Shown here: positions 7,658-63,425 of the stretch, piece after piece
Layout of the letters: each line of letters begins with the position of its first letter
How positions within the stretch are numbered: position 1 is the first letter of the stretch
From: Desulfoscipio geothermicus DSM 3669
GTDB taxonomy: Bacteria > Bacillota > Desulfotomaculia > Desulfotomaculales > Desulfallaceae
Length of the DNA stretch: 64,000 nt
Assembly (NCBI RefSeq): GCF_900115975.1
Contig: NZ_FOYM01000002.1
Coordinates: forward strand, 62,001-126,000
Reading direction: 5' to 3'
Notes under the pieces: model-generated
Seen by the model: the letters and a program-made list of their open reading frames with translations, nothing else
Told to the model about the DNA's origin: nothing
Database searches by the model: none
Made by a program: the position numbers and the translations under genes

Positions 7658-8131
7658 ATGAAAGTAAAAACCACCCGCTTCGGGGTTCTGGAAATAGACG
7701 AAAAGCAAATTATAAACTTTCCCCGGGGCATCCCCGGCTTTGAAAACCTGCGGCGCTTTTGCATATTGCCCGTGGAGGGAACGGAAAACATGCAGTGGCT
7801 GCAGGCAGTGGAAGAGCCCGCCGTAGCCCTTTTGGTCATCGACCCGTTTAAATATTTCCGGGGCTATACCTGCAACGTGCCCGACCAGTACATAGAAGAA
7901 CTGGACATCCGGGACCCCGCCGAAGCCCTGGTGCTCACTACCATAACCGTGCCCCGGGACAACCCCGCCGCCACCACCGCCAACCTGGTGGCTCCCATTA
8001 TTATCAACACCCGGCTGAATCAGGCCCGGCAGGTTATTTTGAACAACTCCCCTTATACTACCAAGCACCGGCTTTTCCCGGACCAAAAGCCGGCTCCCAA
8101 ACCAAAAGAAAAAGTTTCCGGCGGGGAGTGA
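7658..8131 (+). CDS. fliW: Flagellar assembly factor FliW
   Basis: A 157-residue FliW. The family signature is clear: MKVKTTRFGVLEI, FPRGIPGFE near residues 24-32, and AVALLVIDPFKYF. FliW binds flagellin and antagonises CsrA, coupling flagellin translation to filament assembly. The start ATG 7658 is chosen because the upstream frame opens inside an inverted repeat, while 7658 has AGGGATAAGG before it. It is followed 5 nt later by csrA, then by fliC. Confidence 0.95.
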   Translation: MKVKTTRFGVLEIDEKQIINFPRGIPGFENLRRFCILPVEGTENMQWLQAVEEPAVALLVIDPFKYFRGYTCNVPDQYIEELDIRDPAEALVLTTITVPRDNPAATTANLVAPIIINTRLNQARQVILNNSPYTTKHRLFPDQKPAPKPKEKVSGGE

Positions 8132-8136
8132 GTGTA

Positions 8137-8358
8137 ATGCTGGTTCTCACCCGCAAAAAAAACCAGGGCATCATACTGGGGGACGATATAAAAATAACCG
8201 TCCTGGAAATAAGGGAAGACGCCGTCAAAATCGGCATCGAAGCTCCCAAAGAGGTCAACATCCTGCGCAGCGAGCTCTACCAGGCCGTCAAAGAAGAGAA
8301 CACAACCGCCGTCGCCAGTGACCGGAACATAGCGGACATGTTGAAAAATTTTTTCTAA
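8137..8358 (+). CDS. csrA: Carbon storage regulator / translational repressor CsrA
   Basis: A 73-residue CsrA beginning with the hallmark MLVLTRKKNQGIILGDDI and containing VKIGIEAPKEVNILRSEL. CsrA dimers bind GGA-containing hairpins and block ribosome access. The start is the ATG at 8137, 5 nt after the fliW stop; the in-frame GTG at 8128 would overlap fliW and add residues not seen in the family. The likely target is the flagellin leader 100 nt downstream, which has a loop-exposed GGGA hairpin. Confidence 0.95.
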   Translation: MLVLTRKKNQGIILGDDIKITVLEIREDAVKIGIEAPKEVNILRSELYQAVKEENTTAVASDRNIADMLKNFF

Positions 8359-8375
8359 CAGCGGCAGAAAACCCT

Positions 8376-8402
8376 TAAGATACCCGACCCCCGTGCCGAA
8401 AA
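8376..8402 (+). promoter_or_regulatory. Sigma-28 promoter for flagellin
   Basis: TAAGATAC (8376-8383), 11 nt, GCCGAAAA (8395-8402). Spacing matches the sigma-28 consensus exactly and the -10 element matches six of eight bases. It lies in the csrA-fliC gap, leaving an untranslated leader of about 90 nt that contains the CsrA-type hairpin. Confidence 0.75.
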
Positions 8403-8458
8403 ATATAATAGGGTACTTTTTATGAGGCCCTAAAAGGGTGGCCACCCGGGATATATAC

Positions 8459-8494
8459 TTTGCAGGGATGCAAATTTAAGATTCAAGGAGGAAT
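8459..8494 (+). promoter_or_regulatory. Putative CsrA binding sites in the fliC leader
   Basis: TTTGCA (8459-8464) and TGCAAA (8469-8474) form a perfect 6-bp stem with the tetraloop GGGA, an ideal CsrA site with GGA in the loop. About 15 nt further on, the ribosome site AAGGAGGA (8485-8492) supplies a second GGA. This two-site arrangement, with one hairpin upstream and one overlapping the ribosome site, is the known architecture for CsrA repression of flagellin (hag) in Bacillus subtilis. The csrA-fliW pair just upstream supports it. Confidence 0.75.
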
Positions 8495-8500
8495 GATTAG

Positions 8501-9753
8501 ATGATTATCAACCATAATATTGCGGCGCTGAATACCTATCGTCAGTTGAGTAACAACAATATTATGAGCCAAAAATCATTAGAAAAACTATCTTCGGGTT
8601 TACGTATTAACCGTGCCGGAGACGATGCAGCGGGACTTGCCATTTCTGAGAAAATGCGCGGCCAGATTAGGGGATTGGAACAAGCGTCAAGAAATGCTCA
8701 GGATGGAATCTCTCTAATTCAGACAGCAGAAGGTGCTTTGAACGAAACACATAGTATTTTGCAGCGTATGCGTGAATTAGCAGTCCAAGCTGCGAACGAT
8801 TCAAACACTATAACAGATAGAAGAGAGATCCAAAAAGAAGTTAATGAACTAATTGATGAAATCGATCGCGTCGCAAAAAATACTGAATTTAACACCCAAA
8901 ATTTACTAGGTAAAACAAATGCAAGCGGAACTTTTACCGGTAGTGGGCAATCTTTCACTTTCCATATTGGTGCTAACGAAGCCCAAAATATTACCCTTAC
9001 AATTAACTCTATGGATTCTTCTCATATAGGAACTAGTTCCAGCGGCAGCATAACAACAAGTGTAAATACCCTGAAGGTTAGTGGCGTTGATAGCGCTACA
9101 TCTGGAGGAGTTCTAACCCAAAGTGGTGCAGATGCAGCTATAACTACAATTAATGATGCAATTGAGTTGGTATCCGCAGAACGGGCTAAGCTTGGCGCTT
9201 ACCAAAACCGTTTAGAACATACCATTAATAATCTGGGGACATCCGCAGAAAATCTTACTGCGGCAGAATCCCGTGTTAGAGACGTTGACATGGCCAAGGA
9301 AATGATGCAGTACACTAAGATGAGCATCCTGCAACAGGCCGCCCAGGCCATGCTTGAAGTTCTGGCCGCCTAAGGCCGGAACCACAGGCGTCCCGGAGGG
9401 TAACTTCCGGGAGGATCACCGGGTGAATTGCTGGGAAACCCTGAGAGCCTCCCGCCCGACAGCGAAGCCGGAAACGGCAGGCGCGATGGTCGAAAAGCCG
9501 GGAGGATTGGGCAACCAGCAGCCGAGCCCCTGTGCCGAAAGGCTGGGGAAGGTTCAACGACTAGGGCATACCACCTGCGGCCGCCAAGCGGTACGGTGAT
9601 GAAGCCCGTAGGGCGCCTGGAGGCGCCCGAAGCGCCCGGCTCCCGCCGGAAAAGGCGGGATGAAGATATAGTCTAGGCGCCGGCGAAAGCCGGCGGGCCG
9701 GCAGAGCACAGGCCAACCAACAGCCCCAGGGAGTCCTCCAGCTCCTGCGGTAA
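8501..9753 (+). CDS. fliC: Flagellin, coding sequence interrupted by a group I intron (exons 8501-9354 and 9705-9753)
   Basis: The major filament protein. The first exon encodes the conserved N-terminal helices ([36 protein letters not shown]), a small variable domain (about 140-200) and most of the C-terminal helix up to [11 protein letters not shown]. Read straight on, it would end abnormally after EVLAA at TAA 9371-9373. The missing conserved tail [15 protein letters not shown] is encoded in frame at 9706-9750, followed by TAA 9751. Joining 9354 to 9705 gives a normal 300-residue flagellin with the exact consensus tail. AAGGAGGA precedes ATG 8501. The splice sites are predicted from structure and protein consensus, not from transcripts. 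It is the likely substrate for the Maf/legionaminic acid genes downstream. Confidence 0.9.
9355..9704 (+). ncRNA. Group I self-splicing intron inside the flagellin gene
   Basis: About 350 nt with the group I core in order. P element AATTGCTGGGAAA is at 9426-9438. Q element AACCAGCAGCC is at 9513-9523; its CCAGC pairs with GCTGG of P to form P4. R element GTTCAACGACTAGG is at 9552-9565. S element AAGATATAGTC is at 9663-9673; its TAGTC pairs with GACTA of R to form P7. P1 pairs exon ATGCT plus intron TG with CAGGCGT (9385-9391), placing a U.G wobble (9354.9387) at the 5' splice site, then a 9-bp extension 9359-9367/9374-9382. P2 follows (CCCGGAG/TTCCGGG, 9392-9413). P9 is a GCCGGC stem with a GAAA tetraloop (9679-9694). 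The intron ends in G 9704. It contains no open reading frame. Confidence 0.93.
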
Positions 9754-9929: not shown

Positions 9930-10907
9930 CTATAATTCGGAAATGCACTTGTACTTATAATATGTAGCATAATACGTCCGCATAAAACCTGCGTCCAACA
10001 ATCGTCTATGTACTTCGACTGGCTTTAGTTTCTTGCTTATACCATTCTTTAAAATTTCAATTTCCTGTTCCGTCCAGTAATTTACTGGACAAGCAATAGA
10101 AAGTGTCCGCTGATGTTTTTTCGACAGTTCACGCACATGTCTGTTCAGATCGTACTTTCTCTGGAAAATATTCAACTTAACCTGTGATAAATAGGGAGAT
10201 ATCATTTTACTTATTAATTTAATTTGAGTGATTCCAGATATGGTCAAACGGATTCCACTTTCCGCTGATGCCTTTGTAAAGGAAAGTTGCAAACCAGTAG
10301 CCCGTTCAATAATTTCCTTTAATTGTAAACCAATTTCCCTGGCAAAACCCTGGCTGTAAATAACATATTCAAAAGTGACGGTATTTCGCGTAATTGACGA
10401 GATTAAGGAACCGTCATCACCAATAAGGATGGCCATCGCCAGCCATGGTTCCTTTGAAAATATTTCCTCGCACATTTGTAGAGCAACCTGATCGGGGTAT
10501 TTTTCCCGCTTCTTTCTTTGGCTTGTAATTTTATTTTTGTTGGATTGTGCTCTATAGAAGTGCCGTTCAAGCTCTGAAAACAGCGGGTTCGACTGGGAGG
10601 TTAGGGAATAAGACCCGTCTCCAAAACTGGTAATCCGGAAAAACGGATGTGGTGGAAGGAAGCGGGATTTGAATTTCAGCCATTCGTACTGGTCAGCTCC
10701 GTGGTGATCGCGGAATACGGCGTATCCCCTGGGTACAGGGCACAGGTCTGCATCCCCTATTAGGCTTGCTATGATGACAGTCATAGCTTGGGGGTACTTT
10801 TTTATAGTATCCAGAAAAAGTTTGTGCTTAATACGGTAATTCGAGTGTAATTTCTTGTTCCAATAATCAGCCTGCATTTGATTAGAAATTAAATGATTAA
10901 TATCCAT
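9930..10907 (-). CDS. Free-standing LAGLIDADG-type homing endonuclease
   Basis: A 325-residue protein with two LAGLIDADG-like motifs of the (I)xxLIGDxxL subtype: IIASLIGDADL (residues 45-55, acidic Asp52) and AMAILIGDDGSL (157-168, acidic Asp164). The spacing of about 110 residues is that expected for a monomeric two-domain homing enzyme. A C-terminal segment, YWTEQEIEILKNGI, followed by a Tyr-rich helix (about 278-322), looks like a Myb/SANT-type DNA-binding module. The gene is AT-rich compared with the flagellar genes and convergent with fliC, whose intron ends 225 bp away. It lies outside the intron, so the inferred role is cutting the intronless flagellin allele to spread both elements. 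Confidence 0.82.
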   Translation of the reverse strand: MDINHLISNQMQADYWNKKLHSNYRIKHKLFLDTIKKYPQAMTVIIASLIGDADLCPVPRGYAVFRDHHGADQYEWLKFKSRFLPPHPFFRITSFGDGSYSLTSQSNPLFSELERHFYRAQSNKNKITSQRKKREKYPDQVALQMCEEIFSKEPWLAMAILIGDDGSLISSITRNTVTFEYVIYSQGFAREIGLQLKEIIERATGLQLSFTKASAESGIRLTISGITQIKLISKMISPYLSQVKLNIFQRKYDLNRHVRELSKKHQRTLSIACPVNYWTEQEIEILKNGISKKLKPVEVHRRLLDAGFMRTYYATYYKYKCISEL

Positions 10908-30151: not shown

Positions 30152-30240
30152 AATCATACACTGGGCAAACCCGGTGAAAACCGGGGGCGCAAAGCCGTGG
30201 GTCTAAGGTGCAAATCTGCGTTATGATTGCCAGGCTGCAA
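30152..30240 (+). ncRNA. Cyclic di-GMP-I (GEMM) riboswitch
   Basis: The aptamer shows GGGCAAACC (30163-30171), a GAAA-capped P2 stem, GGCGCAAAGCC (30186-30196), GGGTCTAAGG (30199-30208) and ATTGCCAGGCTGC (30226-30238). P1 is closed by AATCATA (30152-30158) with TATGATT (30222-30228). These are the conserved blocks of class I c-di-GMP riboswitches. A terminator lies 30 nt downstream, so ligand binding probably controls read-through into flgB and the rest of the operon. The direction (on or off) cannot be read with certainty; repression of motility by high c-di-GMP is the expected logic. Confidence 0.92.
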
Positions 30241-30268
30241 GTAATAACTTCTATATAAATTAAAAGCG

Positions 30269-63261: not shown

Positions 63262-63380
63262 TGTGAGAGAAAGTGTACCTAGGGTTCCACACCGGCAAGC
63301 CGGTGGTTCGGTCCAAGCGGTACAGGCAGCGCCGGCCAGGCCGGGCGCGGCTACACCGGTCGGGATAAAAGCCCAGGCGG
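63262..63380 (+). ncRNA. ykkC-class riboswitch, probably the PRPP-sensing subtype
   Basis: The leader contains the conserved ykkC blocks: ACCTAGGGTTCC (63277-63288), GGTCC (63310-63314) and GGGATAAAAGCCCAGG (63362-63377), around GC-rich stems. Class members sense guanidine, ppGpp or PRPP; those before purine synthesis genes in Firmicutes are the PRPP type. purE follows directly, supporting that subtype. The 3' conserved AAAGCCCA is also the 5' arm of the following terminator, the expected switching design. Confidence 0.82.
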
Positions 63381-63425
63381 GTAGGTTTCACTCAAATGAA
63401 CCTGCCCTGCTTGGGCTTTGTATTT
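63368..63425 (+). terminator. Riboswitch-controlled terminator before purE
   Basis: 63368-63388 (AAAGCCCAGGCGGGTAGG then TTT) pairs with 63399-63419 (AACCTGCCCTGCTTGGGC then TTT), followed by GTATTTTAT. Its 5' arm overlaps the aptamer, so folding of the aptamer and the terminator exclude each other. 63426-63521 holds only the purE leader. Confidence 0.85.

Follow-up and report, generated by a model that had tools for sequence, protein, structure and literature searches.

The flagellin gene of Desulfoscipio geothermicus DSM 3669 is preceded by fliW and csrA, and its leader carries a small hairpin with a GGA in the loop. This raises the question of whether the leader is a platform on which CsrA represses flagellin translation with FliW as antagonist, as the initial annotation had predicted, or whether the hairpin has another explanation. 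The locus was analysed in a window of 64 kb, the whole stretch of DNA under study, and its features are the following (window coordinates).

7658..8131, + strand: fliW, CsrA antagonist (PF02623, 1.6e-39; PDB 5dmb FliW, 1.3e-28)
8137..8358, + strand: csrA (PF02599, 5.5e-26; PDB 5dmb CsrA, 8.5e-15)
8374..8402, + strand: putative sigma-D type promoter, CTTAAG-N15-GCCGAAAA (sequence and relatives)
8436..8447, + strand: upstream leader element, GGGTGGCCACCC, counterpart of the GCGGCCGA-loop hairpin of other families
8459..8474, + strand: BS1, predicted CsrA-site hairpin, C8463[AGGGAT]G8470 (sequence, folding and comparison)
8481..8494, + strand: BS2, predicted CsrA site across the Shine-Dalgarno, ATTC[AAGGAG]GAAT (sequence and comparison)
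8501..9354, + strand: flagellin (hag) exon 1 (PF00669, 3e-49; PF00700, 1.7e-21)
9355..9704, + strand: group I intron, 350 nt (RF00028; ends deduced from the restored reading frame)
9705..9753, + strand: flagellin exon 2, C-terminal codons and stop (frame restored on intron removal)
9930..10907, - strand: LAGLIDADG-like ORF of 325 aa, free-standing, convergent with the flagellin gene (distant homologues PF03161)

From 5' to 3', the order is fliW, csrA, the putative sigma-D promoter, the leader and the intron-split flagellin gene. Upstream of fliW, flgM was identified by Pfam, and flgN, flgK and flgL are presumably there as well, judging from their place and sequence. The csrA start lies 6 nt after the fliW stop, with GTG 8128 as an alternative start and a Shine-Dalgarno-like GGGGAG within the 3' end of fliW. 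One CsrA and one FliW were found in the genome, encoded by these adjacent genes, and the Pfam matches (PF02599 and PF02623, directly upstream of the flagellin leader) confirmed the earlier claim that both are encoded in this region. As to the C-terminal extension by which CsrA proteins of the FliW-binding type are judged, this CsrA has about 20 residues after the 53-residue Pfam core, and its alignment with the CsrA of 5dmb spans residues 2-63. A FliW relative with 63% identity belongs to Desulfocucumis palustris (Bacillota). Regarding the promoter, the strict sigma-D pattern CTAAA-N15/16-GCCGAWA has no match within the window, and many relatives carry better matches (CTAAA...GCCGATA) at the corresponding position. 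With its start deduced from this putative promoter, the flagellin leader would be about 95 nt long. Elsewhere in the window, Rfam gave a c-di-GMP-I riboswitch at 30154-30242 and a Guanidine-I riboswitch at 63268-63381.

The two candidate CsrA sites in the leader

The 6-bp perfect stem with a GGGA loop reported in the initial annotation is indeed present at 8459-8474 as UUUGCA-GGGA-UGCAAA (TTTGCA at 8459-8464, GGGA at 8465-8468 and TGCAAA at 8469-8474). When its A-U and C-G pairs are counted as in CsrA ligands, BS1 presents the hexaloop AGGGAU with C8463-G8470 as the closing pair. The second GGA is located, as had been claimed, in the ribosome site, where the Shine-Dalgarno AAGGAGGA (8485-8492, GGAGG ribosome site) precedes the flagellin ATG at 8501, and it likewise falls in a small hairpin, AUUC[AAGGAG]GAAU (8481-8494), whose hexaloop is closed by C8484/G8491. 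The leader therefore shows the traits of CsrA targets, namely a GGA in a hairpin loop and a second site overlapping the Shine-Dalgarno, and the measured GGA-to-GGA spacing of 21 nt (8466 to 8487) falls in the range of about 18-21 nt of a single dimer. Both sites fit the C[ANGGAN]G hexaloop form. According to the text available from PMC7652899, most SELEX ligands of CsrA have six-base loops, and BS1 agrees with CARGGAUG, the core of the SELEX consensus RUACARGGAUGU given there.

Folding of the isolated BS1 hairpin gave -5.3 kcal/mol (z -2.98). At -1.1 kcal/mol (z -0.80), the BS2 mini-hairpin is weak, and the whole 125-nt leader folds no better than its shuffles (z -0.45). Moreover, the 64-kb window contains nine perfect stems of 6 bp whose 4-6-nt loop includes GGA, versus 1-8 in ten shuffled windows, and CANGGANG occurs 36 times where 30 are expected. 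The hairpin shape alone is thus at chance frequency, and it is location and conservation that set BS1 apart. Since neither the shape nor the folding of the leader was distinctive, the flagellin leaders of 113 genomes of the order were compared.

At the scale of its own 3.65-Mb genome, a two-site covariance model scored this leader, one of its 55 training rows, at 47.1 bits. No other prominent two-site copy was found in this genome by the model, which would miss single-site CsrA targets, and the next best match had 16.9 bits (E 0.88). The shorter pattern GGGTGGCCACC has 13 matches at 12 places elsewhere in the genome; apart from the flagellin leader, the 11 loci inspected lie mostly within open frames, and L244, the one exception, has no long frame over it. 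As a marker of flagellin leaders over the 113 genomes, GGCGGCCGACCGG proved unspecific and was discarded, its reversed control being at least as common.

Flagellin leaders across 113 genomes of the order

CsrA was found in 62 of the 113 genomes and FliW also in 62, which are the same genomes when the lists are compared by eye, and flagellin was found in 88. From Flagellin_N matches, nearly all above 100 bits, 103 flagellin starts were taken after excluding FlgL-like low scorers and a few fragments at contig edges. Of these, 77 come from 57 CsrA-positive genomes and 26 from 24 CsrA-negative ones; five CsrA-positive genomes had no usable start (G017, G068, G069, G088, G111).

Between -50 and -26, a GGA hairpin with a stem of 4 bp or more was present in 54/57 CsrA-positive versus 1/24 CsrA-negative genomes (Fisher p 6e-16), and a CANGGAG ribosome site in 54/57 versus 0/24 (Fisher p 1e-17), p values that are too small because the genomes are related. 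Both sites were found on one flagellin leader in 52/57 versus 0/24 genomes. The contrast also appears within families, with 9/9 CsrA-positive versus 0/5 CsrA-negative genomes in f8, 2/2 versus 0/5 in f17 and 6/7 versus 0/2 in f9; in f15 it is absent (0/1 versus 0/3). Among the CsrA-positive genomes, five of the 57 miss one or both sites by these rules (G001, G006, G029, G075, G084), and two of them, G001 and G006, which belong to the family of D. geothermicus, fail on stem length alone (2 and 3 bp). The CsrA-negative exception, G047, has a 6-bp GGA hairpin on its leader without the Shine-Dalgarno context. Purine-rich ribosome sites do occur in the CsrA-negative leaders, yet CANGGAG was found in none of these 24 genomes. 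A cruder count per leader, which accepted a hairpin at any position within the final 90 nt, gave 58/77 CsrA-positive and 2/26 CsrA-negative leaders, versus about 20-23% in shuffles; secondary flagellins of CsrA-positive genomes often have no CsrA site.

The form of the sites is conserved as well. In 45 of the 59 CsrA-positive leaders with CANGGAG, the first site is C[ANGGAN]G, and in seven the closing C is replaced by A. The spacing of the candidate GGAs on CsrA-positive leaders is mostly 20-28 nt, and the BS1 region has a mean folding z against shuffles of -1.78 (n = 59), versus -0.42 for the same stretch in CsrA-negative leaders (n = 26). In seven leaders (L082, L085, L130, L136, L153, L121 and L124) the GGA lies in an apparent eight-base loop (A-ANGGAN-G), as though the C-G closing the hexaloop were A.G, and several of these belong to second flagellins beside an extra csrA copy.

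Covariation was examined in an alignment of 55 leaders picked by their Shine-Dalgarno context out of the 59 with CANGGAG, omitting the secondary flagellin leaders L082, L085, L130 and L136. Four of the six BS1 pairs show changes on both sides, a count lowered by the misalignment in MAFFT of several rows whose loop is shifted, and the covariation score was 0.234 versus 0.103 when shuffled (reached in 0/500), with slid partners giving at most 0.079. The BS1 stem varies freely and the ANGGAN loop is kept. The BS2 pairs are nearly invariant, so that the alignment supports conservation of sequence at this site and its pairing is putative. Searched against the 113 genomes, the two-site model gave 55 matches with E<1e-4 in 54 genomes, all of them CsrA-positive, and the coordinates place every match ahead of a flagellin start; since nearly all the matches are training rows, the search gauges specificity and not discovery. 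No CsrA-negative genome appeared below E 1e-3, and above that value there were two further flagellin leaders and eleven chance-like places. G017, the one clear held-out genome, gave a match of 45.1 bits (E 2e-9), and a flagellin start comes after it.

Furthermore, a second conserved element is located upstream of BS1, a hairpin for which most families have the loop GCGGCCGA, and the family of D. geothermicus and a few others have GTGGCCAC. Its 9-base core is present on 46/77 CsrA-positive and 9/26 CsrA-negative leaders, in a position that is not constant. The flanks of the GCGGCCGA loop have a mean true pairing of 6.98 versus 3.88 when swapped (maximum of 200 swaps, 4.81); for GTGGCCAC the values are 4.43 versus 3.16 (maximum of 200 swaps, 4.50, with at least one swap as good). 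In the window's own sequence, folding gives no support to this hairpin (z 0.67). RNAalifold predicted no pairs on the ungapped alignment of 52 of the 55 core-bearing leaders (L159, L083 and L087 omitted), in our opinion because the stem shifts register, and the support for the hairpin is thus the flank-swap test. An Rfam search of the leader and the upstream element found no family and nothing near threshold. A guess about its role would be the protection of the mRNA 5' end.

The group I intron and the neighbouring open reading frame

The intron of the same mRNA, announced as self-splicing in the initial annotation, was recovered as a full-length match to RF00028 (9354-9695, 53.9 bits with a gathering threshold of 50, model positions 1-253 of 253), and its removal restores the flagellin reading frame to give a spliced protein of 300 aa. 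In the unspliced frame, a stop at 9371-9373 leaves a flagellin of 290 aa, and the last 16 residues of D0-C are missing. RF00028 matches were found in 17 of the 113 genomes, and the introns in flagellin genes use three insertion points, one following RDVD, one inside ML-AQANQ and one close to QA-NQQPQ. Assigned by coordinates, the two-site leader and an intron occur in the same flagellin gene in eight genomes including this one (G000, G009, G013, G022, G025, G056, G080 and G081).

Two other arrangements were observed. In L123 and L036 (G013), the unspliced frame at one intron site seems to continue into an alternative flagellin C-terminus, so that a complete flagellin might be made without splicing. 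L206 (G001:C60:127800-133300) is an intronless flagellin gene; about 3 kb downstream of it lies a group I intron fragment, the 3' part, and after this the final flagellin codons are repeated.

The ORF at 9930-10907 has no Pfam or NCBIfam match of its own. Each of the four distant homologues that were tested matches PF03161 (LAGLIDADG_2), with shared positions of the D..DG motif, and the ORF is likely a divergent relative of LAGLIDADG_2 proteins. No relative was found in phage and viral collections, and the AlphaFold model was set aside (mean pLDDT 44). Two relatives were found in the order (G032 and G022), both near csrA genes, a location that fits a possible homing endonuclease aimed at flagellin genes.

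Readings of the leader and comparison with known systems

Judging from the sequence evidence and from analogy, the leader is very probably a genuine two-site CsrA repression platform within a CsrA-FliW-flagellin loop. The co-occurrence in 52/57 versus 0/24 genomes, the covariation of BS1 and the single prominent locus in the genome support this reading, and the loop foreseen in the initial annotation gains further support from the two-hexaloop flaA leader published for Campylobacter jejuni. CsrA binding, its bridging of the sites and the antagonism of FliW would operate here as in the other species from which we infer them. A CsrA dimer would bind the BS1 hexaloop and bridge to the BS2 hexaloop over the ribosome site, shutting off flagellin translation. 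FliW, whose gene directly precedes csrA, would remove CsrA when it is free, and cytoplasmic flagellin would sequester FliW, so that flagellin translation would track export. The intron would be a passenger, the spliced flagellin being intact.

A chance hairpin next to a conserved GGAGGA that is merely a strong ribosome site would agree with the nine GGA hairpins of the same size in the window and with the lack of CANGGANG enrichment, and window shuffles were insufficient to reject it. It was rejected solely on the comparative evidence, since the confinement of the sites to CsrA-positive genomes, the compensatory changes in BS1 and the absence of CANGGAG from CsrA-negative leaders, whose ribosome sites are purine-rich too, make it very improbable. 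Regulation by the leader RNA structure alone, acting on stability or ribosome access with the CsrA co-occurrence as a by-product of ancestry, would find some basis in the GCGGCCGA/GTGGCCAC hairpin; as this hairpin is present with or without CsrA, the leader does contain CsrA-independent structure. Such an explanation is hardly credible for BS1, whose stem varies around a kept ANGGAN loop, and for a contrast between CsrA-positive and CsrA-negative genomes that recurs in three families.

The other two alternatives concern what the sites would do. Flagellin mRNA is generally abundant, and the leader could be mainly a sponge titrating CsrA off other targets and not a means of flagellin repression. 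The flaA mRNA of C. jejuni is described in PMC4894983 as titrating CsrA. For D. geothermicus this role is unlikely, as no other strong two-site target appeared in the genome (single-site targets would be missed) and BS2 covers the ribosome site, so that CsrA binding should repress translation. The FliW-CsrA loop could also sense whether the flagellin mRNA has been spliced, which we consider quite doubtful. FliS binds the C-terminal end of flagellin, and the FliW-contact regions should lie upstream of the intron; hence, truncated flagellin would be poor for export and would still hold FliW. The CsrA freed in this way would clamp BS1 and BS2 and stop the translation of unspliced and spliced messages. 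This proposal rests on the position of the intron and on the contact maps of B. subtilis flagellin, whose residues 11-34, 50-72 and 240-260 are given as protected by FliW in the accessible part of PMC6070490.

Returning to repression by CsrA at the two sites, the mechanism itself is already known from other bacteria; the intron on the same message is unusual. If it operates here, the best known of the protein-antagonised CsrA switches would extend to a whole order of Bacillota, with the leader nearly wherever CsrA and FliW occur and not found where both are absent. A single mRNA would combine a predicted RNA-binding repressor at its 5' end with predicted self-splicing near its 3' end, which makes crosstalk between them directly testable. 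In the titles and abstract openings searched, with subscription journals outside the search, there was no report of CsrA in Desulfotomaculum flagellin and none on CsrA together with a flagellin intron.

The closest likeness is the C. jejuni flaA leader, which, as described in the available text of PMC4894983, has two adjacent hairpins with CANGGANG hexaloops, the second over the RBS, with 21-nt spacing, CsrA and FliW, and compensatory changes such as those seen here for BS1. That species belongs to another phylum, no intron is mentioned in that text, and CsrA binding and repression are proven there, whereas binding is predicted here. BS1 and BS2 are also described for the leaders of C. difficile and B. 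subtilis (PMC8523840), and Bacillus subtilis hag has, like this gene, two CsrA sites, one of them over the Shine-Dalgarno, and FliW as antagonist (PMC7652899, PMC6529632, as far as their accessible text goes). In contrast to B. subtilis hag, the flagellin gene of D. geothermicus holds a group I intron, and its leader has an extra conserved element further upstream, the hag leader having been compared for BS1 and BS2. The gene order fliW-csrA-flagellin is the same in B. subtilis as at this locus. Group I introns in flagellin genes were reportedly described by Hayakawa and Ishizuka in 2009 and 2012 for Geobacillus stearothermophilus and thermophilic Bacillus, and the likeness to the present intron lies in the kind of gene that is interrupted.
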